Positions 1,941 to 30,236 of a stretch of DNA of 30,754 nucleotides are shown here, piece by piece (position 1 is the first letter of the stretch; the number at the start of each line of letters is the position of its first letter). The notes under the pieces were generated by a model, which saw only the letters and a program-made list of their open reading frames with translations, ran no database searches and had not been told where the DNA came from. Made by a program: the position numbers and the translations under genes. The stretch is from a virus: positions 1-30,754 of IMG/VR virus record IMGVR_UViG_3300046810_000094; one strand, 5' to 3'.

Positions 1941-3227
1941 ATGCTTAAGGAAGTACCGAAGCCGGAAGCCCCTGCGGCCAAACTCAGCCTTCAGGAAACG
2001 CTTCATAAGATTAGGCCCGATATTGATCTTGAAACCGTTATCGGCCTGATCATTGATGAGGCAAGCTACTACAGGGATAACAAGGATGTGCAGCGGGCCG
2101 GTGCTCGGGCTGTCAATCATTACTATAAGTTTGGCGAGAAAGAGAAGCGCAAGTTCACCTTGCCTCGCCTGGGGTTCACCCGAACCCTGACGCCAAGCGT
2201 CGTCACGCGCGGTCGGACGCTGTATTACACAACCGCAACCAGCGACAACGCATCGTGGCTGTATCGCTGCGTCTTCCCCTTCAAAACCGATGGGGTCCAG
2301 AGCAATGACATTTTCATGTCAGGCACAAACCTGCTGAGCACCATTCTTATTGCGGTCTTCTCTTCGAAGAAGATTGTCATGATGCGGCCAATTTACACGC
2401 CAACAACGGTGTATCTGATCCAGCTGTGCCGGCGGATAGGCGTTCACGTCCAGTTCGATTACGACGACCTGCTGCTGCCTGAGTTTGCAAGGCAGAGAGG
2501 AGCTTGCCGCTCTGGCCTGCGCGGGCACAAAGAGGATTTCAGCGAATCGCTGAAGCAATCTTCACTCGCTTCGCATGCCGAATCCTTCACATGCTCCACA
2601 GAGGCTATTGCCGCCGAGCTCAGGAAAATAAACCCGAATGTGGAAGTGCGGAAAAACAAACTTCCGGTTTCCATGTTCGAGGATCAGATTGAGATGCTCG
2701 CCAGGGTGAAGTCAAAAACCCCTGAGCATCGGAAGCTGAGAATCCTCTATTTGTCTGGCAGCAACACCCACAAGCGCGACTTCTCGACCATCATGGGTCC
2801 GCTGGTCAGGATCGCTCAGGAATATCCTGACCGGTTCTCCCTGACATTCATGGGTAGCCTGTCGGATTACTCCGGCCTGTTTCGCACGTTAGGTGTCCAG
2901 TCCGACGTCAAGCCTTCGGTGGATTTTTCGGAAATGCTCAAGATAATTCGAGAGCACGATGTTGTTCTCGTGCCTCTGGAGTTCAGTGTTTTCAACCACT
3001 GCAAGTCAAACATCAAGTACGTAGAGAGTGCATGCCAGGGCGTTCCGGTGATTGCAAGCTCGGTGGCCGAGTTCGCTTCCTCCATAAAAAACGGAGTGAA
3101 CGGCTGGCTTTGTGATGATGAGCATCAGTGGTATGACACCCTGAAAAAGGTAGTCCTAAAGCCGAGGTTGACGGTTGACTGTGGTGTCAGGGCGTTCGCG
3201 CACGCAAAAGCGGAGTACAGCGTATGA
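1941..3227 (+). CDS. GT-B glycosyltransferase (family 4-like), probable surface polysaccharide modification
   Basis: A 428-residue protein of the GT-B glycosyltransferase type. Near residues 20-70, YYRDNKDV...HYYKFGEKEKR resembles the short D-x-YY...DV...HY...G-x-E-x-R segment found ahead of many bacterial glycosyltransferase domains. The C-terminal half carries the nucleotide-sugar site: VVLVPLEFS, then SNIKYVESACQGVPVIASS, a standard E-x-x-x-G-x-P-V-I-A block, then NGVNGWL. The start at 1941 is supported by AGGAG about 7 nt upstream. It overlaps the next gene by ATGA, so the two are co-translated. It runs opposite to the late operon and appears lower in GC than the tail genes, which suggests an acquired cargo gene. 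Donor sugar and acceptor are unknown. No GtrA/GtrB flippase partner is present, so it is not a classic gtr cassette. Confidence 0.75.
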   Translation: MLKEVPKPEAPAAKLSLQETLHKIRPDIDLETVIGLIIDEASYYRDNKDVQRAGARAVNHYYKFGEKEKRKFTLPRLGFTRTLTPSVVTRGRTLYYTTATSDNASWLYRCVFPFKTDGVQSNDIFMSGTNLLSTILIAVFSSKKIVMMRPIYTPTTVYLIQLCRRIGVHVQFDYDDLLLPEFARQRGACRSGLRGHKEDFSESLKQSSLASHAESFTCSTEAIAAELRKINPNVEVRKNKLPVSMFEDQIEMLARVKSKTPEHRKLRILYLSGSNTHKRDFSTIMGPLVRIAQEYPDRFSLTFMGSLSDYSGLFRTLGVQSDVKPSVDFSEMLKIIREHDVVLVPLEFSVFNHCKSNIKYVESACQGVPVIASSVAEFASSIKNGVNGWLCDDEHQWYDTLKKVVLKPRLTVDCGVRAFAHAKAEYSV

Positions 3228-4414
3228 GCCGGAAGAACCGTCCAGTGAACAAGGGCGCAGCCCAAAGCCCTGCGATCACCAAAACCGACAGCGTCCTGGC
3301 CGACGTGTACAGCAAGAAAACGGTCGCACAGCAGAAGGAATACAAAGCCGGCGCTGTCACGGGCTCAATTCACCCTTTGGATCGAGTATTGGAGGGAGAA
3401 TTTATTCTCTATGTCGCTGCCAACCCGTCACAGGTGGAGATGGCTTGCGCGATGTCGGAGAGCAGCAGGTTCAACTCCTACATCTATAGCGAAGGGTTTG
3501 ACTTCTACGACCTGTCGCTCGACTACAAGCGCGCTGAGTTCCTGGGCTCATTGAAGAACGTTGCTGCAATCCTCAAGAGGATCACTCGCATCGTCACCTA
3601 TATTGGCCAGGTGAATTCCAACATTCGCAAGGAGTACCGGAATCTCCTGTCTGCAGCTCTGAAGCTGGAAATCCCGATTATCGAGCTGCCTCACGGCCTG
3701 ATCCAGTCTGGCTATAACCTCGACGATGACTCGCGCTTCATTGACCTGTCGTCCTACTATGAAGGCATCGGAAAGAGTCTGCCTTCAATCGCTTCCATGC
3801 GGTTGACCTGGTATGGCGAGAACAGCGTTGGGTACCCACGCCATAACGCGTTCAAGAACTTCAAGGACAAGATCGTCCCTCGCTACACAGTGATCACCAC
3901 AAACACGAACTGGTTCCTGTACTCCGTCGAGGACAAGCGCCACTTCTTCAACGTGGTGTTCAAGTTCGCCGAGAGGCACCCTAACCGGATCTTCATCTGG
4001 TCGCCTCATCCTGCTGAGTCGAATGAACAGACCTACTCCAACCATGTGATCCCGCTGCGCCCGGCGAACGTGCTTACGTACGGACTGACAAAAGACATCT
4101 TTTTCGATGGCATCGAAGGATCAAACGACCTCATCGCCTACTGTGAAGACGGGATCTCGACTCTCAGCACTTGCATCCTCGAGTACGAAATCCACAAGAA
4201 GAACGTTCAAGTGTTCTCTACTGTTGGAGTCGAGAACATATTGAGCGCCTTCACAAGCTGCAAAACGTTCGAATCCATTGACGAACTGAGCGAAAGCTCG
4301 GAGCCAGTAATCACTGGCATGCTTGAGGACTACAACAACGAACGGTTCGACGAGCTGGTGGCGATGGCGCCGAAGAGTGATCCTCGGAACAGTATTTACT
4401 TGGACCTTGCCTGA
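3224..4414 (+). CDS. Putative polysaccharide biosynthesis transferase (GT-B/CDP-glycerol transferase-like fold)
   Basis: A 396-residue protein coupled to the preceding glycosyltransferase by an ATGA overlap. I do not recognise a precise family. Features seen are IIELPHGLIQSGYNL near residue 150, IFIWSPHPAESN near residue 265, and a late DLIAYCEDGISTLSTCILE block near residue 310 followed by KKNVQVFS. The order PHG..., HP..., D-[LI]-I-x-Y-x-D-x-[IS]-S-T matches the layout of CDP-glycerol glycerophosphotransferase and capsule-transferase folds. The first 50 residues are basic and low-complexity. It converges on Rz with a 19-nt overlap of the 3' ends and no terminator between. Probably acts with its neighbour on lipopolysaccharide or another surface glycan; glycosylation of a phage protein is an alternative. 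Confidence 0.55.
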   Translation: MSRKNRPVNKGAAQSPAITKTDSVLADVYSKKTVAQQKEYKAGAVTGSIHPLDRVLEGEFILYVAANPSQVEMACAMSESSRFNSYIYSEGFDFYDLSLDYKRAEFLGSLKNVAAILKRITRIVTYIGQVNSNIRKEYRNLLSAALKLEIPIIELPHGLIQSGYNLDDDSRFIDLSSYYEGIGKSLPSIASMRLTWYGENSVGYPRHNAFKNFKDKIVPRYTVITTNTNWFLYSVEDKRHFFNVVFKFAERHPNRIFIWSPHPAESNEQTYSNHVIPLRPANVLTYGLTKDIFFDGIEGSNDLIAYCEDGISTLSTCILEYEIHKKNVQVFSTVGVENILSAFTSCKTFESIDELSESSEPVITGMLEDYNNERFDELVAMAPKSDPRNSIYLDLA

Positions 4415-7832: not shown

Positions 7833-9446
7833 TTATGAAAGCCAGTTGCTGGAGAAGAAGTCGCCGCCACCAGAAATGAGCATGTCGGCTACGGCGTCGA
7901 AGATCGTGTCGATCTGATCATCGTGGTCGTGGGTGTCGTCGGCGGTGAACGCGGATGCTTCGGTGAGGAACGTCGGAACCCAGTCCGTGGGGGCAATGGC
8001 CACGCCCCGGTGATCCTTCACCTGGTCGATCTTGTTGCCGTGCTCGTCGTAGATGGCGGGCACGAAGACCCGACCAGACTTAAACCACGGCACGGCATCC
8101 ATGCAGCGCACTACTTTGTTGCTGGCGGGGCCGCGCGGCTGGGGTTGAATCTGGATCGATCCCTTTTTGCTGATCGTCTGAATCAGGCCGGTGCCGCTCG
8201 ACTTGTCCTCGACTCGCATGTAGCGAAGGGTTGCTGGTCGGAAGTTGTCCCAAGGCTGCCAGCGCTGCCAGACCTTGAGCGCTTCGGTCTCCAGATCACC
8301 CGCATCCCATTTGCCGCGAACAATCTCGATGATGTAAAGGTTGCCATCTATGCCCAGGCCGCAGTGACTGAACACCGAGAAGTCGTGCTGCTCGTCGGTC
8401 TTTTGAGCGGTGTCGACATACACGCCGCGCCAAACAAGAAATGGCAACTGCTCGTAGGTCGGGAACCAGTCGGCATCGATCATGCCGCCAGTCAAGGCGA
8501 TGGGTGACTGCTGGTACTGGCTGACCAGTGTGTAGGCATCACGGTCCCACAGCGCCATCAAGTCAAATACCGATTCCTTTGCAGGCCAGTACGACCAGTA
8601 TTCAACGCCGCCTCGGACTACTGAGGGCCCGCTGAATACGTCGCGCTCGGCGTGCTCACGGATCTCGCGCGGTAAGCCTTCGATGTACTCGCGCGTCACC
8701 AAGGCTGGAACCTTGATGTGCGAGAAATCGAGGCCCATGCCGCCGGCGAGCAGGAAGCCAGATACGTCATCGGTGTGCAGCCGCTGCTGAGTGCATATAA
8801 CCGGGGTGTCAGGTGACGCACGCCGACTGCGTAGCGTGTTGACCACGATCCGCTGAGCTTTGGCGCGCATGGTCGCGCTGAATGCGCTGTCGGCTTTTTC
8901 CGGATCATCGAGGTTGATGAATCCGCTGAAGCCTTCCGAGATGTACCCGCCCCGGACGCCAGTGATCTGTCCGCCAGTTGAGCGGCTGAAGATCTGATGC
9001 TTGTTGCGCCCGTTGTCGTCGGTGACGATCCAATTCGCGACGTCAGCTTTCCCCAGAGCGCAGGGCCAGAGCTCCTGATATTCAGCGCTGGTGATGATCG
9101 ACTTGATGCGGTTGGAGTTTTCTTCGACCAGCGATTTCGAGTAGGAAACGCTCAGATTGCGCGTCCGGTCGAACTTCGTCATCACGTATGCAGGCAGGTG
9201 AATTGACCAGTATTCGGTCTTGGTGCCACCTGGTGGCATGTTGAAGACGACGTTCTTGAGCTTGCCCTGCAGGACCTGCTGGGCGGTGTAATCCATGTAG
9301 CGGTGATGCCAGTTGCACAGAAACTTCATCCCCTGATTGATCTGGAAAAAGACGCGCATGAACGCGAGCGGGGAATGCTCGCTGATCATTTTGGATGCTT
9401 CTTTTTCCTCCCGACTCATTGTTTCCCAGTCGAGAAGCGCGGTCAT
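7833..9446 (-). CDS. terL: Terminase large subunit
   Basis: A 537-residue packaging motor that cuts and pumps phage DNA into the prohead. The ATPase has a variant Walker A, MPPGGTKTE (residues 70-78), a Walker B, GFINLDDP (residues 175-182), and a coupling motif in VICTQQRLH (residues 217-224). The RNase H-like nuclease half begins at VYVDTAQK (first acidic residue near 348). The gene overlaps TerS by ATGA. Its place after the tail fibre genes and before the tailspike, about 16 kb from the portal gene, is unusual, since terminase normally adjoins the portal. Confidence 0.93.
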   Translation of the reverse strand: MTALLDWETMSREEKEASKMISEHSPLAFMRVFFQINQGMKFLCNWHHRYMDYTAQQVLQGKLKNVVFNMPPGGTKTEYWSIHLPAYVMTKFDRTRNLSVSYSKSLVEENSNRIKSIITSAEYQELWPCALGKADVANWIVTDDNGRNKHQIFSRSTGGQITGVRGGYISEGFSGFINLDDPEKADSAFSATMRAKAQRIVVNTLRSRRASPDTPVICTQQRLHTDDVSGFLLAGGMGLDFSHIKVPALVTREYIEGLPREIREHAERDVFSGPSVVRGGVEYWSYWPAKESVFDLMALWDRDAYTLVSQYQQSPIALTGGMIDADWFPTYEQLPFLVWRGVYVDTAQKTDEQHDFSVFSHCGLGIDGNLYIIEIVRGKWDAGDLETEALKVWQRWQPWDNFRPATLRYMRVEDKSSGTGLIQTISKKGSIQIQPQPRGPASNKVVRCMDAVPWFKSGRVFVPAIYDEHGNKIDQVKDHRGVAIAPTDWVPTFLTEASAFTADDTHDHDDQIDTIFDAVADMLISGGGDFFSSNWLS

Positions 9447-9892
9447 AGGCGATCGAGAACAGATTCGAGGGTTTTCTTGTCCACCGTAACCTGCGACTTC
9501 GTTTCGATAGCGCCGCCATTCTTGCCGGTCAGCTCAACGATTTTCTTGTCCAGGCCCAGCAGCTTGGCTTTACCCATGGTCGCTCCTACGGCGGCGGCAG
9601 CTTGTGGCGTCTCCGCCGATAAAGCTGCCTTGCGGGCCTCTTCCAGCTCAAGCAGGAGAGTGTCTACGGTGATCTGGTGACGATCCATCACGCGCTCGCG
9701 CAACTCTGCCAGCCGCTCCTGAACCTGAGGCAGTTGAAGGACGTTGTACCCTTCGCGGCCAATCGTGGCCGTGGCCATGTTGGCGGTGCTGTAGGCGATG
9801 CGGTATGACTCGGCAGCATTCGCGGTTTCAACGTAGGCAAGACAGAACTTTTCCATCTTTTCGCTGAATTTACGCTTGCGCTTCACTTCCAT
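9443..9892 (-). CDS. terS: Terminase small subunit
   Basis: A 149-residue DNA-recognition subunit of the packaging enzyme. It begins with a basic stretch and the Terminase_2-type opening SEKMEKFCLAYVETANAAESYRIAY is readable at residues 9-33, the usual helix-turn-helix region; LPQVQERLAELRERV follows as the oligomerisation helix. The ATGA overlap with TerL and the size agree. The start at 9892 lies 1 nt after the stop of the preceding gene. Confidence 0.88.
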   Translation of the reverse strand: MEVKRKRKFSEKMEKFCLAYVETANAAESYRIAYSTANMATATIGREGYNVLQLPQVQERLAELRERVMDRHQITVDTLLLELEEARKAALSAETPQAAAAVGATMGKAKLLGLDKKIVELTGKNGGAIETKSQVTVDKKTLESVLDRL

Positions 9893-21744: not shown

Positions 21745-22137
21745 TTACTTCTTGGCGAGCGCCGCCTTCAGGTCCGTCTCCAGCTTCTGGGAACGAGCCT
21801 GCTCCTCGGTCAGCTTGTCCTGCGCAGTCTTGAGCTGGCCCGGCAGGTCCTTCAGGTCCGTCTCCAGCTTCTGACGGCTGGACTGCTCAGCAAAGAGCTT
21901 GTCCTTGTAGTGTTGATTCTCGTCCTGGAGCGTACGAATCAGTGCTGAATAGTCAGCTCCGCCTTCATCAGCCTTGTCCGGCGCACCAGTAACCAGCACG
22001 CCGTGCTGTTCCCAGAACGAGCCTTTCGCCAGTTCGTACTGAGCATCGGTGGTTTGCTCACCGACACCCACCGAGCTGCCATCCGACAGGAACACCGGAT
22101 TGGCGCTGGTATTGGTGTAAACCTTCTTCGAAGTCAT
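21745..22137 (-). CDS. Capsid-region protein with duplicated coiled-coil unit
   Basis: A 130-residue protein after the major capsid gene. The first 70 residues form a small beta part (KVYTNTSANPVFLSDGS) as in short capsid decoration proteins. Residues 80-130 are a coiled coil with a 28-residue repeat: KLFAEQSSRQKLETDLK and KLTEEQARSQKLETDLK. The repeat is also present in DNA, where 25 identical bases recur exactly 84 bp apart. Role unknown; a decoration or head-fibre role would fit. Confidence 0.65.
   Translation of the reverse strand: MTSKKVYTNTSANPVFLSDGSSVGVGEQTTDAQYELAKGSFWEQHGVLVTGAPDKADEGGADYSALIRTLQDENQHYKDKLFAEQSSRQKLETDLKDLPGQLKTAQDKLTEEQARSQKLETDLKAALAKK
21765..21873. repeat. 84-bp tandem coiled-coil duplication inside a capsid-region gene
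   Basis: The two identical 25-nt blocks at 21765-21789 and 21849-21873 are offset by 84 bp (28 codons, four heptads). The bases after each block are similar but diverged (gcctgctcctcggtcagctt versus gactgctcagcaaagagctt), which fits an old duplication kept in part. Confidence 0.8.
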
Positions 22138-22146
22138 GTGACCTCC

Positions 22147-23124
22147 TTAGATGCCGTCGACGTAGGCGTGGGACATCGGAACGCGCAGCTCTGTACCAGC
22201 AGTGCGCACCACACCGGCCGCCTCGAAGCGCAGACCGCCGTGAGACGGGATAGGCGCGTTCAGCGTGTACGGCATTGGCAGGTGGAACTTCGCGAACTGG
22301 GCGTTTTTGGTGTACGCCATCATCCGGTCAGTACCGCCGACGCCGGCACCTGCCAGCTGCAGGATTGGCTCGAAGGTGATGTTCAGCACCCGTTCCAGGT
22401 AGCTGATCAACGTTTCCGAGGTGTTCGGGATGCGGAATGTGGTCAGTTGCCCGTACTGCTTGAGCGGCAGCAGGATGTGGGTCGGACGGAAGATGCTGTT
22501 GGTTTGCACCGAGTAAACCTGAAGGATCAGGTTGTTCAGCAGGGTCAGCATGTCGCTTGCTGCGGCATCCGGCGTCTCGGCCAGGATCTGAGCGAAGGTC
22601 TTGTTCGCACCGCCCAGCAGAGTGCCGGTAGCGAGAACAGGAACGCCCGGATACTTGATCAGACCGCCAGTTGCCAGTGAGGGCCAGCGCGCATCACCCA
22701 CCATCGCAACGCGGTCAAGCCATTGCTCGGTCAGGGTGCGGGTCGCGATCGGCTTCTCAGCCAGGTAGTTGATCGCACCGCCGAAGCCCTGCGCGTTCGC
22801 CATTTCCATGGCCTTGCCGACTTCGATCTGGGTGTAGGTGTAGCCCAGGCCAGCCTGGACCACGTCAACGCCACCGATCTTCGATGCGATCTCAGCCAGC
22901 GGGAAGTCGTGGGACAGGTCGCCGATTGGAGCAGGCTCACCCTTGTAGTCGAGGACCTTGAAGCCGATCGACTCGATGTAGTCCGGTGCCGAGGTGTCGA
23001 CATTCAGCACGCGGGGATACTTGATCTCCGCGTACGGCTGACGCAGCACTTCCTGTTCGATATACGTCAGGTTGCCGATCAGAAAGCCCAGTTGCGCTTG
23101 GGCCTGTGCGTCCATTGTTCTCAT
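22147..23124 (-). CDS. Major capsid protein (DUF2184)
   Basis: A 325-residue capsid subunit. Residues 20-75 (TYIEQEVLRQPYAEIKYPRVLNVDT..D..E.IGFKVLDYKG) and IGGVDVVQAGLGYTYTQIEVGKAMEMA, then the FRPTHILLPLKQYGQL strand, are DUF2184 signatures. AAGGAG 7 nt before the ATG at 23124 supports the start. It follows the cement gene, and no cleavable N-terminal delta domain is seen, in line with a separate scaffold. Confidence 0.9.
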   Translation of the reverse strand: MRTMDAQAQAQLGFLIGNLTYIEQEVLRQPYAEIKYPRVLNVDTSAPDYIESIGFKVLDYKGEPAPIGDLSHDFPLAEIASKIGGVDVVQAGLGYTYTQIEVGKAMEMANAQGFGGAINYLAEKPIATRTLTEQWLDRVAMVGDARWPSLATGGLIKYPGVPVLATGTLLGGANKTFAQILAETPDAAASDMLTLLNNLILQVYSVQTNSIFRPTHILLPLKQYGQLTTFRIPNTSETLISYLERVLNITFEPILQLAGAGVGGTDRMMAYTKNAQFAKFHLPMPYTLNAPIPSHGGLRFEAAGVVRTAGTELRVPMSHAYVDGI

Positions 23125-23135
23125 GTGAGCGCTCC

Positions 23136-23645
23136 TTAAGCGGCAATGGTGGTTGGGTTGATGGCCTTGACTTGCATCAGTGCCAACTCACCGGCCGCAG
23201 CAGCGGTCAGGAAGGTGCAGCCCGGAAGCAGGTGATTGCCGGCGGTGCTGGCGTTGGTCAGTTCGCCAGTGGTTGGCTTGGCGTAGACCTGAGCACCGAC
23301 GGTGGCACCATCGATGGTCTTGACCCAGATGCGGCCATGGCTGACACGGCTGGTTTCTTCACCGACGCGGTAGCTGCCTGGAAGGTTCGCGCTGCCTTGA
23401 CCTTGGCCGGTCACGTAGCTGGTGCTGACGCCTACGGTCTTGGCCACGGAGATGCCGAGGAAGAAGCCCACGCCTGCGCCAGGCAGGGCATCACGCTTGG
23501 AGGCGGAGCCAGAGACCACGGCGCGGGCGAACGGGATGACAACGTCTGCCACACCGGTGGTGACGTCGGCCATAGACAGGTCATTGATCTGACCTTCGTA
23601 GGCCTTGCCAGCGTACTGGCCAAAGGTATCAATTGCGGTGGCCAT
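23136..23645 (-). CDS. Capsid cement/decoration protein
   Basis: A 169-residue Gly/Ala/Val-rich beta protein upstream of the capsid gene. FARAVVSG, then LPGAGVGFFLGISVAKTVG, the YRVGEETSRVSHGRIWVKTIDGATVGAQVYA block and a C-terminal GELALMQV strand are the layout of the phage structural cement (Gp24-like) family. Starts 1 nt over the stop of the DUF2213 gene. Expected to bind the outside of the mature head. Confidence 0.8.
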   Translation of the reverse strand: MATAIDTFGQYAGKAYEGQINDLSMADVTTGVADVVIPFARAVVSGSASKRDALPGAGVGFFLGISVAKTVGVSTSYVTGQGQGSANLPGSYRVGEETSRVSHGRIWVKTIDGATVGAQVYAKPTTGELTNASTAGNHLLPGCTFLTAAAAGELALMQVKAINPTTIAA

Positions 23646-24190
23646 TACTTTTCACCTCGCAGGAACTTGGAGTAGGTGTCGGAGCCGTCAGTGGTCAGCT
23701 TTGGAGCCTTGGCGGCGTCCTTGGCGAACTGGGTCAGGCTGTCGTTGGTTTTGGTGCCGTCGTCGTCATCGTCATCCTTCTCGTCCGCTTCATCAGCGGC
23801 AGCATCGAATGCGGCGACAACGTATGCCTCGGACTTGGTCGCCCAGTCGCGGGTCGGCTTCAGCTGCGCCATGGCGGCGCGCTTGATTTCCAGCGGGGAA
23901 ACCAGACCTTTGGCGTCGAAGGACTTCACGACTTTCGAGGCCAGGGCGATGGTGTCGAGGGTGGCTTTGACACGGAGGCCGATGGCAGAGTCAGAGGTGG
24001 CCTTTTTGGCTTCCTCCAGTTCTTCTTCGGCTGCGTCCTTGGTGGCCTCAGCCGTATCTGCGCGATCGCTCGCTTCGTCGAGTGCCTTCATGAGCCGTGC
24101 AATGCCGTCCTCGACGATCACTGCATGCTCTTCATCCAGCACGACAGAGAGGGTTTTTTTGGAGTCCAGAAAGAGCTTCCGGGTCGCCAT
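23645..24190 (-). CDS. Possible nested scaffold product of the DUF2213 gene
   Basis: An in-frame start inside the previous gene, ATG at 24190 with AAAGGTATC 6-11 nt upstream, would produce 181 residues beginning MATRKLFLDSKKTLSVVLDE. This is exactly the helical, acidic half without the protease domain. No independent evidence of translation exists; only the site and the domain boundary support it. Confidence 0.4.
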   Translation of the reverse strand: MATRKLFLDSKKTLSVVLDEEHAVIVEDGIARLMKALDEASDRADTAEATKDAAEEELEEAKKATSDSAIGLRVKATLDTIALASKVVKSFDAKGLVSPLEIKRAAMAQLKPTRDWATKSEAYVVAAFDAAADEADEKDDDDDDGTKTNDSLTQFAKDAAKAPKLTTDGSDTYSKFLRGEK

Positions 24191-24745
24191 AGTGGGGATA
24201 CCTTTCGGTTTGTGATCAAAAATACGGGCGACCTTTCCGGCCCGTGCTGCTTGTACAACCGCGATGTGGTTGATCTTGATGTCGCGCTGCTCGTACTCGT
24301 AGGGCGTGCCGTCTGGGGCAACGCCCGGCGCGCGGACGTATTCAGCCGTGTAGCCTGGAGAGAGCTCCGCTTTGCCTGACTGGATGTCATCGATGGCCGA
24401 CTGATCCTTGATGACCTTGTCGGTTACCAGGTTCTCACCGTCCCGCTCGACGCCGCGTACGTGACCGACCGAGACCTCCTTGAAGGTTTTGGAGTCGACC
24501 AGGTCTTCGGGGTGGTCGTTGGTGACGTCCTTGTCGAGGTACGTCGCCATGGACTCGGGGTCGAACACCTCTTCGGGGGAGCGGTACACGTTGACGATCC
24601 GCTCGGGGCCGTCGAGGTCCAACTCGCTGGAGAGGTACTGATAAACCCCGGTGCGCGCCGCAATGCCCTTCACGCACAGGAAACCTTCAGGCGTGAGGGT
24701 GCGAGACGTAGGCGCGAACGTCTCGTCGATGGTCATTCGTTTCAT
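23645..24745 (-). CDS. DUF2213 capsid maturation protease with scaffold-like C-terminus
   Basis: A 366-residue protein. Residues 1-180 are the DUF2213 domain: SMATYLDKDVTNDHPEDLVDS, with His78, and GKAELSPGYTAEY, with Ser129, suit the His/Ser pair of prohead proteases; KINHIAVVQAARAG closes the domain. Residues 186-366 are helical and acidic, with a coiled coil (ASDRADTAEATKDAAEEELEE), and look like a scaffold. An internal ATG at 24190 (Met186) lies after AAAGG, about 10 nt upstream, and could give a separate scaffold, as in lambda C/Nu3. The protease assignment is inference from layout and position. Confidence 0.75.
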   Translation of the reverse strand: MKRMTIDETFAPTSRTLTPEGFLCVKGIAARTGVYQYLSSELDLDGPERIVNVYRSPEEVFDPESMATYLDKDVTNDHPEDLVDSKTFKEVSVGHVRGVERDGENLVTDKVIKDQSAIDDIQSGKAELSPGYTAEYVRAPGVAPDGTPYEYEQRDIKINHIAVVQAARAGKVARIFDHKPKGIPTMATRKLFLDSKKTLSVVLDEEHAVIVEDGIARLMKALDEASDRADTAEATKDAAEEELEEAKKATSDSAIGLRVKATLDTIALASKVVKSFDAKGLVSPLEIKRAAMAQLKPTRDWATKSEAYVVAAFDAAADEADEKDDDDDDGTKTNDSLTQFAKDAAKAPKLTTDGSDTYSKFLRGEK

Positions 24746-24748
24746 GGG

Positions 24749-25705
24749 TTACCCGTTCTTGTCGGGGAAGTAGTTCACGCCGGGGATCATGGAGATGGCG
24801 ACACAGCGGCAGAGAGGGTGATGCTTGCCCGGCTTCAGCCCGGTTTGTCCGGCCCACGTTGCACCGACACCGACCTTGTAGACTCCCTCGCCAAAGCCGA
24901 TGTCCTGGCGGGCTATGCCGTAACAGCTGATCTTGGCGTTCGGGTATTTCCCCGCAGGGTTACCAGAAACACGCACGTCGCCGGCGTCTTCTGACTTGTA
25001 GTACTCGATCCCCGCTGCAGCCTGTCGCTTCTCGGTCAGGTCGGCGTTGATCTGTGACATCTGGTCTCGCGCTATCAACTTGGCACGGCGGGCGGTGATG
25101 CCTGTCTGCTCCTGAATCTGCCTGGCTATGACTGATGGGGCAGCGCCGCTCTTCATTCCGCCCAGGACGATCGTTTCCACTTTCTGGAAATACTCGGTCT
25201 TGACGGACTTGATCAGGTTGACGTTTTCAGCGATTGAGGCTTCCAGGTAATCCTGCATGCCTTTGGGCCGCGTGATCAGTTCGAAGTCGATACCGACAGC
25301 CCGGTTGATCGAGTTGCGGAAGTCCTCAGCATTATCGGCCTCGGCTCGACTGATCGTGCTCGCGGCCACCCGCTGAACCTGCGCATCAAACAGCGGCGTG
25401 ACGAATCGCTGTGACACGCTGCGAATCGCCTTCAGGATTTCTTCCGTCCAGCTGCCATCGAGCGTCATGCGGCTGTCAGCGATGTAGTCGGGCTTCAACC
25501 GCTTGAGCTCAGGCTCGACGGCCGCAACCAATTCACCCGCCATTAACCGGACCATCGCTCGAAGCTGCCCACGGTAGAACTGCTCCACATCCTTGCTCGG
25601 CAGGACCGGTTTAGGGGCTCGGGGTTTCCTTGGCCGTTTTTCCATCAGTGCTTTGTTGAGGGCGGTCAGGCTTTGAAGCGGCGTCAGCTTTTTGCGGGCT
25701 TCCAT
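24749..25705 (-). CDS. Minor head protein, Mu gpF-like (MuF)
   Basis: A 318-residue minor capsid protein bound near the portal and probably ejected or needed for head assembly. The helical first half is followed by the MuF domain: ARQIQEQTGITARRAKLIARDQMSQINADL (residues 199-228), then the C-terminal H-x-x-C-x-C in HHPLCRCVAISM. It starts inside the portal gene (22-nt overlap), and its place directly after the portal is classical. Confidence 0.9.
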   Translation of the reverse strand: MEARKKLTPLQSLTALNKALMEKRPRKPRAPKPVLPSKDVEQFYRGQLRAMVRLMAGELVAAVEPELKRLKPDYIADSRMTLDGSWTEEILKAIRSVSQRFVTPLFDAQVQRVAASTISRAEADNAEDFRNSINRAVGIDFELITRPKGMQDYLEASIAENVNLIKSVKTEYFQKVETIVLGGMKSGAAPSVIARQIQEQTGITARRAKLIARDQMSQINADLTEKRQAAAGIEYYKSEDAGDVRVSGNPAGKYPNAKISCYGIARQDIGFGEGVYKVGVGATWAGQTGLKPGKHHPLCRCVAISMIPGVNYFPDKNG

Positions 25706-27483
25706 TCTTCACCACCAAGGACGATTGATGCCAGTGGTAGAGGGTTGGCGCGGATGGCCTCCAGCTCTTCATCTGTGGGGTCGTACTTGAGGCTCAGATG
25801 AGGCAAGAAGGTCGGATAGCTGTGCACGGCGCCAGAAGCTCCGATCTCGTTGAAACGAGCTTGAAGCTCTGGAGAATCCAGCTTAACAACCAACGCACGC
25901 CACGGGGCCTGACCAATAATCTCGTACTCGGTCGTCAGATTGGCTGTGTACAGACCGATTTTCGGTGAGCCTGCTGGAATGCCGTCGCGGGCATAGAACA
26001 GGGTCACATGCAGATCATCAGCCAGAACGCCACTGCCAATACCAGCGCTCAGCACGTGCTCCGCGATAACGCTGGCAGACAGGCTGTCAGGCTTGACCGA
26101 AACGAATCCATTCGGAGCAGCGTCCGTGGTGGTCTTCCCTCCAAGGTTGAACTCAGGCAAGTCATCCCCGTCATCACCTAATCCTGCGTCCTGGTCCTTC
26201 TCTAACTTCTCTTGCGCGGCGATTTGCTCGTCGGTGATCGCGTAGGTGCCTTTGGCCTGAGCTTTGCGCATCGCATGGCTTGGCTTGATCACACCGTTCT
26301 CGATGTACAGCGCATCAGCCTGAGCCTCGGCCAGATCCTCCTGAGCCTGCTCGACACCAGAGGTCTGAGCCAGCGGATTCCATTCGAACTCGATGTCGTC
26401 CGGGTAGGTGCCCAGCGCGGAGCGGATCAGCACCTGATCCATAAGCTCGAGGTCCAGCCTCATTTGGCCGTCCTGCTTGCCCTTGATCGTTCCGTGGTAG
26501 GTCTTCAGGTCGCCTTCGCCATTGGCACTCAGTCCGGAGGCTGATTGCCCCCAAAGCTCGGTCACCGGCATCTCGGCAGCGCCTGCCGTCCACACCATGA
26601 ATTGCTCCATGATCGAGCTCAGCCCTGAGAACGCGATGCTGTTGCGCTCGTAGGTCTCGCTTTCCTTGTCCAGCAGGCCAAGGTTCACGATGGACTTGAG
26701 CATGCCGAACATTCGGTAGCGCTCGGTCACGTTGTCGCACTGGGCGCTGGCAAGTGCTGCCTTCAAACCACTGACGCTGATCGTGTCGACGTTGGCTTCC
26801 AGCACCAGAGAGGCAATGCCCCCCTTGGTCGCCACCACATCGCGCAGGTCTGACATGCAACGACGCAGACGACTGTCACCCCAACCCTGTTCGAACTGAC
26901 GCATGCGCCGCGGCAGGCGAGCACCCGTGCGGCGAATGATGTGGCTGTGATGAATCTTCTGCTGCCCATTCACCATCATGTAGAACTCTGGAAGCATCCA
27001 GTTAGGCGCCAGAGGGTTGGTGAAGTTGAACTCGGTCGGCTGAATGTCCCAGCGGTCGAACACCACCAGGTTCTTCAGCCCGCCCTTTTTGATCTTGTCG
27101 AGGTTGAGCGGTTGGCTCAGGTCCTGTCCGGTCACCATCAGGATCGCAGCACCACCGTACAAGTCAGCCCAGCAGCAGGTATCAAGGTAGGCCTGTTGCA
27201 CTCCCAAGCGGCGCTCTTCGTTCGCGATCTCTTTAGCCTGCTTGCCGCTGAATGCCCGCCACTCTCTCAGGGCGTCCTCGTTGGGCTTATCCACGATCCG
27301 GCGTGCGAGCCAGTTCGATTGATACGCCGCTTCCAGCTCATACGGAGTGACGAACTCGAAGCCGAATTGACTGTGTGAGCGCTTGTCCCGGTTGGTGCCA
27401 ATGTTAGCGACCATGTTCGAGAGACTGTCGGTTGTGATGACCGCCCCCGCAGTCACAGAAATTCGCGGTTTATTTGTGGTCAT
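25684..27483 (-). CDS. Portal protein (DUF1073) fused to an Acb1-like 2H phosphoesterase domain
   Basis: A 599-residue protein. Residues 1-430 are the DUF1073 portal: FVTPYELEAAYQSNWLARRIVDKPNEDALREWRAF, the HHSHIIRRTGARLP strand and ITELWGQSASGLSANGEGD-type P-loop around 300-330 are seen. Residues 459-599 are a second domain with HVTLFYA (His492) and HLSLKYD (His562), the two H-x-T/S-x tetrads of 2H phosphoesterases. The segment WRALVVKLDSPELQARF and the ending around HLSLKYD resemble T4 Acb1, which degrades CBASS cyclic nucleotides. The two are joined by an acidic Asp/Gly linker. Annotated DUF1073-Acb1 fusions exist in databases; activity in this protein is inference. No clear ribosome site: a palindrome at 27485-27496 sits in its place. 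Confidence 0.88.
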   Translation of the reverse strand: MTTNKPRISVTAGAVITTDSLSNMVANIGTNRDKRSHSQFGFEFVTPYELEAAYQSNWLARRIVDKPNEDALREWRAFSGKQAKEIANEERRLGVQQAYLDTCCWADLYGGAAILMVTGQDLSQPLNLDKIKKGGLKNLVVFDRWDIQPTEFNFTNPLAPNWMLPEFYMMVNGQQKIHHSHIIRRTGARLPRRMRQFEQGWGDSRLRRCMSDLRDVVATKGGIASLVLEANVDTISVSGLKAALASAQCDNVTERYRMFGMLKSIVNLGLLDKESETYERNSIAFSGLSSIMEQFMVWTAGAAEMPVTELWGQSASGLSANGEGDLKTYHGTIKGKQDGQMRLDLELMDQVLIRSALGTYPDDIEFEWNPLAQTSGVEQAQEDLAEAQADALYIENGVIKPSHAMRKAQAKGTYAITDEQIAAQEKLEKDQDAGLGDDGDDLPEFNLGGKTTTDAAPNGFVSVKPDSLSASVIAEHVLSAGIGSGVLADDLHVTLFYARDGIPAGSPKIGLYTANLTTEYEIIGQAPWRALVVKLDSPELQARFNEIGASGAVHSYPTFLPHLSLKYDPTDEELEAIRANPLPLASIVLGGEEWKPAKS

Positions 27484-27484
27484 A

Positions 27485-27534
27485 GATTGATCAATCCCGC
27501 GCCACGAAATGGACGCATCTGAATTCGTGGCGCG
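27485..27534 (-). promoter_or_regulatory. Palindrome and 11-bp inverted repeat ahead of the portal gene
   Basis: GATTGATCAATC (27485-27496) is a perfect 12-bp palindrome that starts 1 nt before the portal ATG, where the ribosome site should be. Immediately upstream CGCGCCACGAA (27498-27508) pairs with TTCGTGGCGCG (27524-27534) over a 15-nt loop, a strong hairpin without a T-run. Together they fill the 53-nt gap. A translational or transcriptional control of the head operon is likely; I see no matching known element. Confidence 0.6.
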
Positions 27535-27536
27535 AG

Positions 27537-27758
27537 TTATTCGTTAACCGGCGGTTCGCGCAGCTTCGATTGCTGGATCACCCTGGACACCGCGACCGCA
27601 ATGCTGAGCCCCATGTTCACGACCGCGAACACCAGTGGATCAACTGCCCCCTGAAACACTGACCACCCCGCCGCTGCCGCATTGAGCACTGCACCGGCCA
27701 CCGCCAATTGCACACTGGTCATTCGCCAGGCCTTACGCCATTCAGGGATGAGTGCCAT
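27537..27758 (-). CDS. Holin-like small membrane protein
   Basis: A 73-residue protein with an N-terminal IPEWRKAWRMTSVQLA segment, common in small phage holins of Pseudomonas and Burkholderia phages, and two hydrophobic segments (VQLAVAGAVLNAAAAGW and PLVFAVVNMGLSIAVAV). The ATG at 27758 is chosen over the in-frame ATG at 27815, since it fits the family and lies 17 nt inside the lipoprotein gene. It is the only good holin candidate and is far from the endolysin, in the same operon. Confidence 0.6.
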   Translation of the reverse strand: MALIPEWRKAWRMTSVQLAVAGAVLNAAAAGWSVFQGAVDPLVFAVVNMGLSIAVAVSRVIQQSKLREPPVNE

Positions 27759-27993
27759 GGTCGATATCCGGGGGCAGTAGTTTTTCAAGGTTCTGGGCGT
27801 ATCGCTTCCAGTCATCCCGGCTCGCTGTCATGCGTCGAAGGTCGGCGTCTCTGGACGCTGACGGCTTAGGGCATTCACTTGGCGCTGACGTGTACCGGTT
27901 TACTGTTGTGTGCTGCACTGGCGGATCAGTCTTAATCACTTCTCTCGGCGCGCAGCCGGCAAGCAAAAACACCACAACCAGTGCGCACCTCAC
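27742..27993 (-). CDS. Small lipoprotein with helical tail
   Basis: An 83-residue protein: RCALVVVFLLAGC gives a short signal peptide and a lipobox LLAGC with Cys at residue 14. The mature part is Pro/Ser-rich, then a helical stretch (DADLRRMTASRDDWKRYAQNLEKLL). It overlaps its membrane neighbour by ATGA. This pairing of a one-membrane-span protein and a lipoprotein is reminiscent of an i-spanin/o-spanin pair, but Rz/Rz1 also exist at 4396-4920. Confidence 0.7.
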   Translation of the reverse strand: MRCALVVVFLLAGCAPREVIKTDPPVQHTTVNRYTSAPSECPKPSASRDADLRRMTASRDDWKRYAQNLEKLLPPDIDHGTHP

Positions 27994-28307
27994 TTTGGCC
28001 GTCCGTTGAGCGTCAGCTGCTTCACGGCATCGGTGAGTGTGTCCACGCGGTATTCCTGCTTCTCTGTCGAGGTCTTCACCACGCCAAGGGTCACCCCGTA
28101 CGCGTCGAGTGTTCGCTCGATTGAGCCGATCCGCTGGATGGTCACGGCTTGGGTGGTCTGGTAGTTATTCAACGCTACCTGGAGGGACGACAATGAGGAC
28201 ACCACGTAGCTGAACGCAGCGAGCGCCCCGAGGGAGATAACGGTTTGCAGGATAGGCACGATGAGCTTGAACATCGTACTGTCAGCGATGCGCGAGACTT
28301 CAGTCAT
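27990..28307 (-). CDS. Membrane-anchored coiled-coil protein
   Basis: A 105-residue protein with one hydrophobic segment (LIVPILQTVISLGALAAFSYVV, residues 15-36), then a helical part with heptad-like spacing (LSSLQVALNNYQTTQAVTIQ... TLTDAVKQLTL). No family recognised. Single-span plus coiled coil suits an i-spanin-like, holin or antiholin role. Coupled to the lipoprotein by ATGA. Confidence 0.65.
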   Translation of the reverse strand: MTEVSRIADSTMFKLIVPILQTVISLGALAAFSYVVSSLSSLQVALNNYQTTQAVTIQRIGSIERTLDAYGVTLGVVKTSTEKQEYRVDTLTDAVKQLTLNGRPK

Positions 28308-28320
28308 GGTGACATCCAGA

Positions 28321-28346
28321 ATTAAAAGGCCCGAAGCATCCGGGCA
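28321..28346 (-). terminator. Terminator-like hairpin upstream of the membrane-protein cluster
   Basis: On the minus strand GCCCG-GATGCTT-CGGGC is followed by CTTTTAAT, a 5-bp GC stem and a short T run. Transcription from the region to the right would be reduced here before it enters the head operon. Confidence 0.55.
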
Positions 28347-28488
28347 AAGGAGCGCTGGGGAGCAGCACGATAAGATTCAGGGTCGAATGAGGCCCTCGCT
28401 GAACATGGCGATCAGAGGTTCCGAGGGGTTTGGGGAAATGCACATCCGGGAAAGCATCCACTTTGGTAGCGGCTTTCCTCGGAGGTAC
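28347..28488. other. Non-coding stretch between two terminators
   Basis: Together with the flanking hairpins, the 236 nt from 28308 to 28543 hold no gene I can support. The short minus-strand frame running 28503-28300 begins inside the hairpin and lacks a ribosome site. Confidence 0.5.
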
Positions 28489-28519
28489 AAAAAAGCCCGG
28501 CATGGCGTCCGGGCTTTTT
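28489..28519. terminator. Bidirectional intrinsic terminator
   Basis: AAAAAAGCCCGG-CATGGCGT-CCGGGCTTTTTC has a 6-bp GC core extended by A-T pairs, with A runs on one side and T runs on the other, so it works on both strands. It closes the secreted-protein gene at 28544-28834. Confidence 0.85.
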
Positions 28520-28543
28520 CACATCAGGTCACTTCAGGCGTAT

Positions 28544-28834
28544 TCAGCAGATCGGCAGCGCGAAGCTTTCGGGCTTTGGCTTGGCCGAGGTCATTTCGAA
28601 GTGATTGCTGGATGCACGCAGATTGGACTTCAACTGTTCGTCGGTGGACTGGCTGCCCGTTCGCCATGAAGCGAGGGTCATTTCCAGACGCGTGAGCGCC
28701 ACACCCTGCGGCTCGCCCATGGTGCGAACCATGTGATACGCGGAGGTTACCGGATCGGCCAGGGCGGTCAGGGAGAAACAGGACAGGCATGCGGCGAGCG
28801 CAAGACCCAGGTACATGGAGAGTCGCTTAATCAT
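28544..28834 (-). CDS. Small secreted protein, flanked by terminators
   Basis: A 96-residue protein. MIKRLSMYLGLALAACLSCF followed by SLTALA is a typical cleavable signal peptide (cut after ALA, residue 26). The mature part (about 70 residues) is unrecognised, with SAYHMVRTMGEPQGVALTRLE and two late cysteine-free helices; a single Cys is at the end. GAGGAA about 7 nt before the ATG at 28834 decides this start; the frame is open upstream but lacks such a site. A terminator on either side isolates it, like an independently expressed phage cargo gene. Confidence 0.7.
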   Translation of the reverse strand: MIKRLSMYLGLALAACLSCFSLTALADPVTSAYHMVRTMGEPQGVALTRLEMTLASWRTGSQSTDEQLKSNLRASSNHFEMTSAKPKPESFALPIC

Positions 28835-28868
28835 TCGGCATTCCTCGAGGTTATTTTCGTTCGCCCAC

Positions 28869-28897
28869 AAAAAAGCCCCGCACAATGGCGAGGCTTT
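28869..28897 (-). terminator. Intrinsic terminator after the candidate antiterminator gene
   Basis: On the minus strand AAAGCCTCGC-CATTGT-GCGGGGCTTTTTTG forms a 7-bp GC-rich stem (one G-T pair) extended by A-T pairs and followed by six T. It lies 75 nt after the stop of the gene at 28972 and before the secreted-protein gene. Confidence 0.85.
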
Positions 28898-28937
28898 GGG
28901 TTGCGTTTGCGCTGGGGGTGATTTGCGCACTGTGGGA

Positions 28938-28966
28938 AAATTACCCCAAAACCCCCACCATGGCAA
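28938..28966 (-). promoter_or_regulatory. Candidate late promoter, pR'-like
   Basis: On the minus strand TTGCCA (-35, 28961-28966), 17 bp, TAATTT (-10, 28938-28943). The -35 matches 5 of 6; the -10 only 3 of 6. Expected start near 28931, about 35 nt before the terminator at 28869-28897, as in lambda pR'-tR'. Confidence 0.35.
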
Positions 28967-28971
28967 ATAGT

Positions 28972-29649
28972 TTATGCAGCATGTTCGGAATTCTCTGCAT
29001 GAATGACCTGCCAAATCGGTTGTTGAGCCTCAATGTCTACCTCGTGGATGGCTTGGCGCAGAAAGTCCCAGATCTCCAACCAGTCACGATTCCAGTGTTT
29101 CGGCTCGATGGTGATCCCGTACAGCTTATGCATCCCCTCCGCTACCCGTGCCGGCCCCCACGCCGGCCCACCATGAACCTCCGCCTTGTACGACTGCAGG
29201 GCCACCGTGATCATGCAGTGGACCTTTGCGGACTTGGCGTCGGTCAGCGCCGAGAAATCCACCTCGCTCCAGATCAGCTTCTCGGCGTTGAGCATGTGCA
29301 CCGCCGTCATGCATGGGTGGTACAGGTAGTGCCCGAACTGCTGCACCTGGAACGGCAGTGTGTCGATGGCTCTGAGAACCTTGCCGATGGTCGCCAGGTG
29401 AGCGGCACGCGCGGTTGATCGGCCGATGGGTGTCCGGCGAGTCTCCGAAATGCTGATCCGCTGGCGAACGACCTGAATGCGTTCCTCCTTGTCGTCACCC
29501 AACGCAGCGAACACGGCTTCCCGGCGTTTTACCCGCTCAGTCCTGACCTTGGTTGCGGTCTCCGCCTTTTCAGCCGCTATCGCGCTAATGGAGGCATTTG
29601 ATTCGTGCTGTGCGTCCGACCATGCCTGACGCGCTCCGATAAGTCTCAT
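28972..29649 (-). CDS. Protein of unknown function, candidate late antiterminator
   Basis: A 225-residue protein right after NinG, with which it overlaps by ATGA. The first 80 residues are charged and helical. The second half reads LPFQVQQFGHYLYHP...AEKLIWSEVDF and PKHWNRDWLEIWDFLRQAI, a segment I associate with Pseudomonas phage proteins but cannot name. It lacks a clear zinc finger or HTH. Position (after ninG, before a terminator and the late genes) matches lambda Q, so late antitermination is a reasonable guess. GGGGAGA 8 nt before the ATG supports the start. Confidence 0.6.
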   Translation of the reverse strand: MRLIGARQAWSDAQHESNASISAIAAEKAETATKVRTERVKRREAVFAALGDDKEERIQVVRQRISISETRRTPIGRSTARAAHLATIGKVLRAIDTLPFQVQQFGHYLYHPCMTAVHMLNAEKLIWSEVDFSALTDAKSAKVHCMITVALQSYKAEVHGGPAWGPARVAEGMHKLYGITIEPKHWNRDWLEIWDFLRQAIHEVDIEAQQPIWQVIHAENSEHAA

Positions 29650-30236
29650 GCTGCTGCTCTCCCCTTCAGCTCTTTGGTCTTTGCCCGATACAGCGCCGTC
29701 AGCGCCTTCAGTTCATCAATCGTGTACTTCTTCGGCTCATGCAGCCCCTCAAGCCACTCAACCGCTTCCAATCCAATCTTCTCGATCAGCCTTGGTCGAT
29801 ACCCCAGCAGGTTGCCGGACTTGCCCATGTTGCAGTTGCGGTTGCATTGCAGATGGACGTTCAGCGGCTCGAAGCGCAGTTCTGGCGCGGCAGCGGTTGT
29901 CCGATAGTGGCCGGCGCAGTACTGGACATCCGCCGTGGTGCCGCAACTGATGCAGGGCTGGCCGGCATCACGCTCACGAATCCAGGCATTGAAAGCGTGT
30001 TGCGTGTCCTTGAGGTGATCCGCCCTGCTCTTCAGCTTTTCCTTGCGAACCTTGATCTCGCGGCGCTCGCGCTGAGCAATCGACTTGCGCTGCTTTTCCT
30101 GCGCCTGGCGGGCCAGCACTACTGCGCAGTCCGGCGAGCACCATTTCTGAAAGCTGCGGGTCGGCGTGAAGGTCGCGCCACACCCAGCGACTCGGCAGCG
30201 CTTCGGCCGCATCGGCTTTGTGGATTGCGGAATCAA
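29646..30236 (-). CDS. ninG: NinG/Rap recombination protein
   Basis: A protein of about 196 residues, homologous to lambda NinG (Rap), a nuclease for recombination intermediates. The N-terminal zinc finger has C-x4-C (CRVAGC) then WCSPDC; the central part is Arg/Lys-rich; the C-terminal half reads AFNAWIRERDAGQPCISCGT, AGHYRTTAAAPELRFEPLNV and CNRNCNMGKSGNL, the lambda NinG HNH-like block. The exact start is open: TTG at 30236 overlaps a small upstream ORF (TTGA) with GGGGGTGGG before it; ATG at 30212 and GTG at 30263 are alternatives. Confidence 0.9.
   Translation of the reverse strand: MIPQSTKPMRPKRCRVAGCGATFTPTRSFQKWCSPDCAVVLARQAQEKQRKSIAQRERREIKVRKEKLKSRADHLKDTQHAFNAWIRERDAGQPCISCGTTADVQYCAGHYRTTAAAPELRFEPLNVHLQCNRNCNMGKSGNLLGYRPRLIEKIGLEAVEWLEGLHEPKKYTIDELKALTALYRAKTKELKGRAAA

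Follow-up and report, generated by a model that had tools for sequence, protein, structure and literature searches.

A portal protein with an optional Acb1-type 2H phosphoesterase domain at its C-terminal end

The portal gene and its C-terminal domain

In the viral record IMGVR_UViG_3300046810_000094 (the 30,754 nucleotides analyzed here in full are called the window), a minus-strand open reading frame (ORF) at 25684-27483 encodes a portal protein of 599 amino acids (aa) that ends in an Acb1-type domain. Residues 459-599 and the stop codon are encoded at 25684-26109. This end of the protein had been described from the letters alone, in what we call the original prediction, as an Acb1-like domain of 141 residues directed against cyclic oligonucleotide-based antiphage signaling systems (CBASS). 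The features of the locus are listed below, with the mean predicted local distance difference test (pLDDT) of the structural models where it applies.

25684-27483, minus strand: portal with C-terminal Acb1-type domain, 599 aa (ORF; PF06381 and PF23474; phrog_146, portal, over residues 12-579)
26311-27342, minus strand: portal core, residues 48-391 (Phage_portal_3, PF06381, E=6.6e-95, 318.2 bits against a cut-off of 33.8; full-length model compared with 8hds_A)
26116-26184, minus strand: linker, residues 434-456, predicted disordered (pLDDT <50 in the full-length model)
25687-26109, minus strand: Acb1-type 2H phosphoesterase domain, residues 459-599 (PF23474; model pLDDT 90.4; Z 16.0 to 7t26)
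26002-26010, minus strand: first catalytic motif, His492-Val-Thr494 (T4 His44, Thr46), invariant in 35/35 rows of an alignment whose rows were partly found by this motif
25792-25800, minus strand: second catalytic motif, His562-Leu-Ser564 (T4 His113, Thr115), with His in 35/35 rows and Thr/Ser in 33/35
25699-25701, minus strand: Lys595 where T4 has Glu141 (adenine contact), the lid Trp147 being without counterpart (MAFFT alignment; column make-up)
25670-26164, minus strand: 495-base stretch missing in near relatives such as locus L005, with approximate cassette limits (blastn)
24749-25705, minus strand: MuF-like head morphogenesis gene, downstream, overlapping the portal end by 22 bases (phrog_324, 1.8e-55; PF04233 at 26.7 bits, below its cut-off of 29.6)
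23645-24745, minus strand: DUF2213 head maturation protease (PF09979, E=9.2e-50; phrog_530, E=2.4e-90)

Family searches and structural modeling agree on the nature of the domain. The Pfam Acb1 family PF23474 matches residues 460-580 (E=9e-19, 68.1 bits against a curated cut-off of 27), and phrog_755, which is labeled 'RNA ligase' and is the family found on the T4 gene annotation, matches residues 454-597 (E=1.4e-20). With phmmer, the portal reaches the solved Acb1 structure 7t26 (E=8.2e-8), and a profile built from 35 domains matches both the portal of cyanophage Pam3 (E=2.7e-38) and 7t26 (E=1.1e-21). An AlphaFold2 model of residues 452-599, made with 35 natural domain sequences, had a pLDDT of 90.4 and a predicted template modeling score of 0.84, and its best structural match was again 7t26 (Z 16.0, 2.1 Å over 135 residues; E=6.4e-9 in the other structure comparison). 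Four Acb1 entries (7t26, 7t27, 9q2y and 9q2g; Z 14.9-16.0) topped both comparisons, with plant CPDase and LigT trailing at Z 11-12 and the best non-Acb1 entry at Z 12.3. The model of all 599 residues was less certain (pLDDT 75.3). Residues 459-599 are thus confirmed as an Acb1-type 2H phosphoesterase by a match beyond chance, and the fold check that had been proposed, run here against solved Acb1 structures, came out in favor of the original prediction. We file the domain as Acb1-type, a name that is not meant to imply the specificity of T4 Acb1.

The active site is likewise recognizable. Both predicted H-x-T/S motifs are present 70 residues apart, as HVTLFYA from residue 492 and HLSLKYD from residue 562, and in the MAFFT alignment with the T4 record sequence, His492, Thr494, His562 and Ser564 occupy the places of T4 His44, Thr46, His113 and Thr115, with Ser replacing Thr at the last. 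These T4 residues belong to the HxT/HxT tetrad described for Acb1 by Hobbs et al. 2022 (PMC9117128). The segment KLDSPELQARF, beginning at residue 534 and rightly likened to T4 Acb1 beforehand, aligns with VLDSEYLRCRH. By sequence alignment only, the T4 base-stacking aromatics Tyr12 and Phe107 correspond to Phe460 and Tyr556, Trp74 to Ile, and Trp147 to no residue. With this set of residues, catalysis by the domain is likely.

Distribution of the domain and genomic setting

Close relatives of the window portal differ in whether they carry the domain at all. A search with the whole portal gave 28 viral contigs. Three have the form of 598-599 aa, whereas 23 encode complete portals, 466-473 aa long, that lack Acb1; one further portal (L029, start partial) also has no domain, and L027 is cut off. 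The domainless ones include portals that share 95-98% identity with the window protein over residues 1-448. In L005, where this identity is 98%, blastn aligns the DNA as far as window position 26165 (95% identity) and again from 25669 (93%), inside the MuF gene, and 29 bases stand where the window has 495. PF23474 was found in 3/21 records (the window, L002 and L004), and Acb1 was found elsewhere in none of the 18 domainless records searched, several of which are fragments. The core tree of this window clade includes L030; L002 and L034 were omitted for being the same as the window, L027 because it is cut at residue 366, and L029 and L035 because they are partial. In this tree, 5 of 29 rows are fused and at least 3 changes are needed, a count in which gain and loss are indistinguishable. 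The domain is optional.

Similar patterns were observed in two further portal clades, each searched with a core query that was taken from a fused portal. For clade A, the core of L052, which contains no letters of the domain, returned 491 relatives, of which the best 80 were classified. Eleven of these 80 loci carry the domain and 69 end without it, mostly in a short acidic tail; L136, with the domain, and L139, without it, are both 100% identical to the query core. The clade A core tree (L198, whose start is not full, dropped and L061 added) has 12 fused of 80 rows and 10 changes, against a shuffled mean of 11.4, with at least 6 changes forced by well-supported branches of this quick tree; fused portals are scattered over it. 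For clade B, the core of L078 gave 22 loci, comprising 10 with Acb1, 6 with short tails, 2 with another C-terminal domain and 4 that could not be classified (L221, L231 and L233 cut off; L097 with its frame broken). At the Acb1 slot, L222:4300-4938 encodes a PBECR3-like domain (E=3.4e-5, under the Pfam cut-off), and the portal end of L235:3001-4230 resembles it by eye, with no Pfam match of its own there.

The domain also occurs elsewhere. In the family of Sphingobium arseniciresistens (L042), a Phage_portal_3 portal is present in 7 of 199 genomes, with the domain attached in 4 of the 7. The domain also stands behind the Portal_Mu (PF06074) portals of L079, L088 and L107, where a further C-terminal stretch follows it. 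Scanning genomes with just the window domain gave no relative, and a second scan, with alignment A1, gave 9. In 5426 Escherichia coli genomes the clade A domain had no near match (the clade A core occurred in 5), PF23474 exceeded its cut-off in 1/369 genomes of a Gammaproteobacteria sample, that one being the centre genome itself, and plasmids yielded no near DNA match to window positions 22000-30000.

Two other arrangements of the domain were noted. A 1038-aa protein of the Pantoea sp. plasmid NZ_CP034366.1 (L237:1943-5059) combines DarA_N with Acb1 at residues 689-828; this anti-restriction-type protein adjoins genes annotated odaE and ddrA. In L121:625-3897, a 1090-aa portal has Acb1 at residues 506-662 and then more than 400 residues without a Pfam match. 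A separate Acb1 ORF in the Synechococcus phage Yong-M3-232 (L040:1464-1720) was considered as a portal-independent copy and rejected. A 127-base tandem duplication splits the gene, which in the near-identical sister phage Ssp-JY40 is an unsplit fused gene of 619 aa, and the split is a mutation or an assembly error.

Where the domain is present, it has been maintained. Both catalytic motifs are intact in 21/21 fused portals from the core queries (11 of clade A and 10 of clade B) and in 4/4 of the Sphingomonadaceae fusions, whose portals were found by portal family. A separate motif search (its 80 loci being the best 80 of 95) included the first catalytic His, and its loci can therefore not prove conservation of that motif. 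Among 77 distinct domains aligned from 89 loci, two have lost the second Thr/Ser (L096, and L104, which equals L106); L051 is cut before the second motif. Nei-Gojobori ratios of nonsynonymous to synonymous substitution (dN/dS) between the window and L004, L035, L036 (used as is, with a frame change near its end) and L051 were 0.11-0.18 for the domain and 0.10-0.15 for the core, rough values for the domain, as its dS exceeds 1 in comparisons with the window. Clade A domains gave 0.07-0.11 and other pairs reached 0.32; for the window and L003, dS was 0. The domain is under purifying selection.

In the window, the portal gene is followed downstream by the MuF-like gene and then by that of the DUF2213 maturation protease, with the major capsid protein gene farther away (Pfam, PHROGs), and a holin-like gene lies upstream. 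The large and small terminase genes (7833-9446, phrog_38, 2e-100; 9443-9892, phrog_51, 1.6e-18) are not directly before the portal, being located ~16 kb from it, beyond the tail genes. Between the integrase and lysis genes, a glycosyltransferase (phrog_7162) and an adjoining 396-aa ORF, which at the set thresholds matched nothing in Pfam, PHROGs or PADLOC, occupy 1941-4414 and possibly form a lysogenic conversion pair.

Possible roles of the domain

Near-identical relatives without the domain, catalytic residues kept in nearly every copy and replacement by another domain in places are together best read as the marks of a payload, and because of its family the destruction of a cyclic nucleotide signal is the most likely job. 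We consider it fairly probable that the domain is an optional counter-defense enzyme on the portal end, acting as a newly made, late anti-signaling protein. The last 141 residues, tied to the portal end by a flexible linker, would most likely cleave the cyclic oligonucleotides that signal alarm in the infected cell, to the presumed benefit of the phage. As part of the portal gene in the head cluster, the domain would be produced presumably late, as capsid parts accumulate, and its activity would come from free and assembling portals, such that few copies per particle need not matter. Phages may gain, lose or replace the domain, with the portal working either way. Given the attachment of the enzyme to the portal and its place among the head genes, action late in infection by newly made protein would be the simplest timing.

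Several observations weigh against this reading. T4 Glu141, which contacts adenine, is replaced by Lys595, and since the chain stops at residue 599, four residues past Lys595, nothing corresponds to the lid of T4 residues 145-152 with its Trp147. Among the rows examined, those of the window clade and of clade A have neither Glu141 nor Trp147, including the clade A type rows L052 and L061, which agree with the window at both places. By comparison, six sphingomonad-type rows (L041, L049, L078, L112, L113 and L121) have Glu141 in 6/6 and Trp147 in 4/6, and Glu stands at this place in 24/34 rows having a residue there. Glu141 and the lid are thus features of the studied enzymes and not of the Pfam family PF23474, and the changes at Glu141 and Trp147 make the exact substrate uncertain. 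The association with the CBASS synthase family SMODS was not significant in a matched set of 396 genomes (2/8 against 34/388, one-sided p=0.16). The viral record may moreover be incomplete, and the phage may have other anti-CBASS genes.

A stronger association was set aside and not used as support. SMODS was found in 5/11 domain-bearing genomes against 21/198 of the family sample (one-sided p=0.006), where the 11 genomes, with a fused portal or a domain-bearing prophage, came from other searches, partly overlap the sample and include one of another class (G022). None of 3 genomes with a domainless portal had SMODS over the cut-off. On balance, the anti-CBASS role in the original prediction is plausible from sequence, with fold, family and tetrad speaking for it and the changes at Glu141 and lid Trp147 and the lack of a significant SMODS association against it.

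The position of the domain on the particle bears on when it could act. A portal consists of twelve copies and stays in the head, and its crown faces the head interior. The P1 paper places the C-terminal part of the portal in the crown and describes the C-terminus itself as missing and probably flexible. The full-length window model superposes on the Pam3 portal (8hds_A) with Z 28.1 over 396 residues (rmsd 7.7); this is the only solved portal found by the domain profile, which matches its residues 462-619, with HVT and HIS motifs present. The chain in the structure comprises 442 of 621 residues, of which 396 align to model residues 15-440. At most 46 residues are left over, such that there is no room for the domain in the deposited model; the Pam3 domain is absent from it, being mobile or removed. 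Exposure on the virion, one of two options originally offered, is not supported by these results, as the C-terminus follows the inward-facing crown. The other option, action when newly made late in infection, fits better and would be our choice.

An alternative with a modest chance of being right is that the domain is cargo delivered by the virion: packaged inside the head while attached to the portal, it would be released by a cut in the linker, leave with the DNA and destroy signals from the first minutes. 2H and PBECR domains on MuF or portal proteins have been suggested to be packaged and injected (PMC5512222, PMC9503650), and it is consistent with such a route that the Acb1 domain also occurs on a DarA-like protein and that PBECR-like domains take the same slot in 2/22 clade B loci. 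Cleavage would account for the lack of space in the Pam3 model, although flexibility explains the missing residues equally well. Release is required here, since the portal, in twelve copies, stays in the head. Perhaps the DUF2213 maturation protease is the cutter, although its candidacy for processing the portal linker is speculative.

We regard it as rather unlikely that the domain is an RNA-end or tRNA repair enzyme, a LigT-like 2',3'-cyclic phosphodiesterase. The 'RNA ligase' label of phrog_755 and the matches of the 2H fold at Z 11-12 to LigT and plant CPDase would suit such an enzyme, the connection with CBASS signals is weaker without Glu141 and the lid, and this role has been proposed for phage 2H domains (PMC9503650). 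Nonetheless, the Acb1 entries lie 2.6 to 3.7 Z units above the best other entry, and PF23474 is the only enzyme family matched by the portal protein at E 0.01 or better. It is very improbable that the domain, despite its fusion to an essential structural protein, is a structural element of the portal or a relic without activity, given portals 95-98% identical without it, a Pam3 model with no room for it, motifs that are kept and a low dN/dS.

Relation to known systems

As originally stated, the fusion was already known. Fusions of 2H domains to MuF or portal proteins were in print in 2017 (PMC5512222) and 2022 (PMC9503650), where packaging and a use against nucleotide-activated immunity were proposed, and the window portal belongs to this published kind. 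The role had been called little explored; a counter-signaling role was proposed in both papers, and we found no test of it in the text covered. In the open-licence text covered, we found no description of presence and absence of 2H domains among near-identical portals, and the open-licence literature joining Acb1, portal protein and CBASS did not, in the text covered, treat a portal fusion. This analysis adds the optional status of the domain among near-identical portals, its intact motifs, the lidless form with Lys595 and the lack of room in the Pam3 model.

A cost of the enzyme would explain its frequent absence. Expression of T4 Acb1 has been reported as sufficient to trigger Panoptes, and three resistant T4-like phages carried acb1 or acb2 loss-of-function mutations (PMC12657230); in another paper, deletion of T4 acb1 was without effect, although expression lowered colony formation (PMC12657218). 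Such a cost is hypothetical for the phages studied here. For jhp1044, another polyvalent protein, found in Helicobacter prophages, extensive domain mosaicism has been described (PMC5512222). We put forward, as a tentative idea with a modest chance of being right, that phages use the C-terminal end of the portal as a payload slot, switching enzymes that act on immune signals on, off or for another domain over short time scales, a gain where CBASS is met and a cost where Panoptes-type sensing is, and that the lidless window-clade form with Lys595 has a shifted choice of substrate. The window (or L002) with L005, and L136 with L139, are near-matched natural pairs in which the enzyme differs, as do other positions. 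With such pairs one can ask directly if nucleotide signaling is overcome by a domain that a virion protein carries, when that domain is active and at what cost, for portal-enzyme fusions that have been in print since 2017.

Compared with the T4 and FBB1 Acb1 enzymes (PMC9117128), the window domain has the same 2H fold, the catalytic tetrad and aromatics at the Tyr12 and Phe107 places. T4 Acb1 is a free protein of 152 aa, whereas the window domain is fused to a portal, has Ile at Trp74 and Lys595 at Glu141 and lacks the Trp147 lid. The 2H and PBECR fusions to MuF or portal proteins published in 2017 and 2022 (PMC5512222, PMC9503650) share its architecture and its proposed purpose. The Pam3 portal (PDB 8hds) has the same core fold and the same domain, but by eye keeps Glu at the Glu141 place and a Trp near its end, neither of which the window protein has. 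The sphingomonad-type prophage portals L041-L049 likewise join a Portal_3 core to the domain, in one frame of 629-657 aa in 7/9 (the frame is broken in L043 and L046), and their domain is a distant one: rows from neither the window clade nor clade A share 22-29% identity with that of the window.

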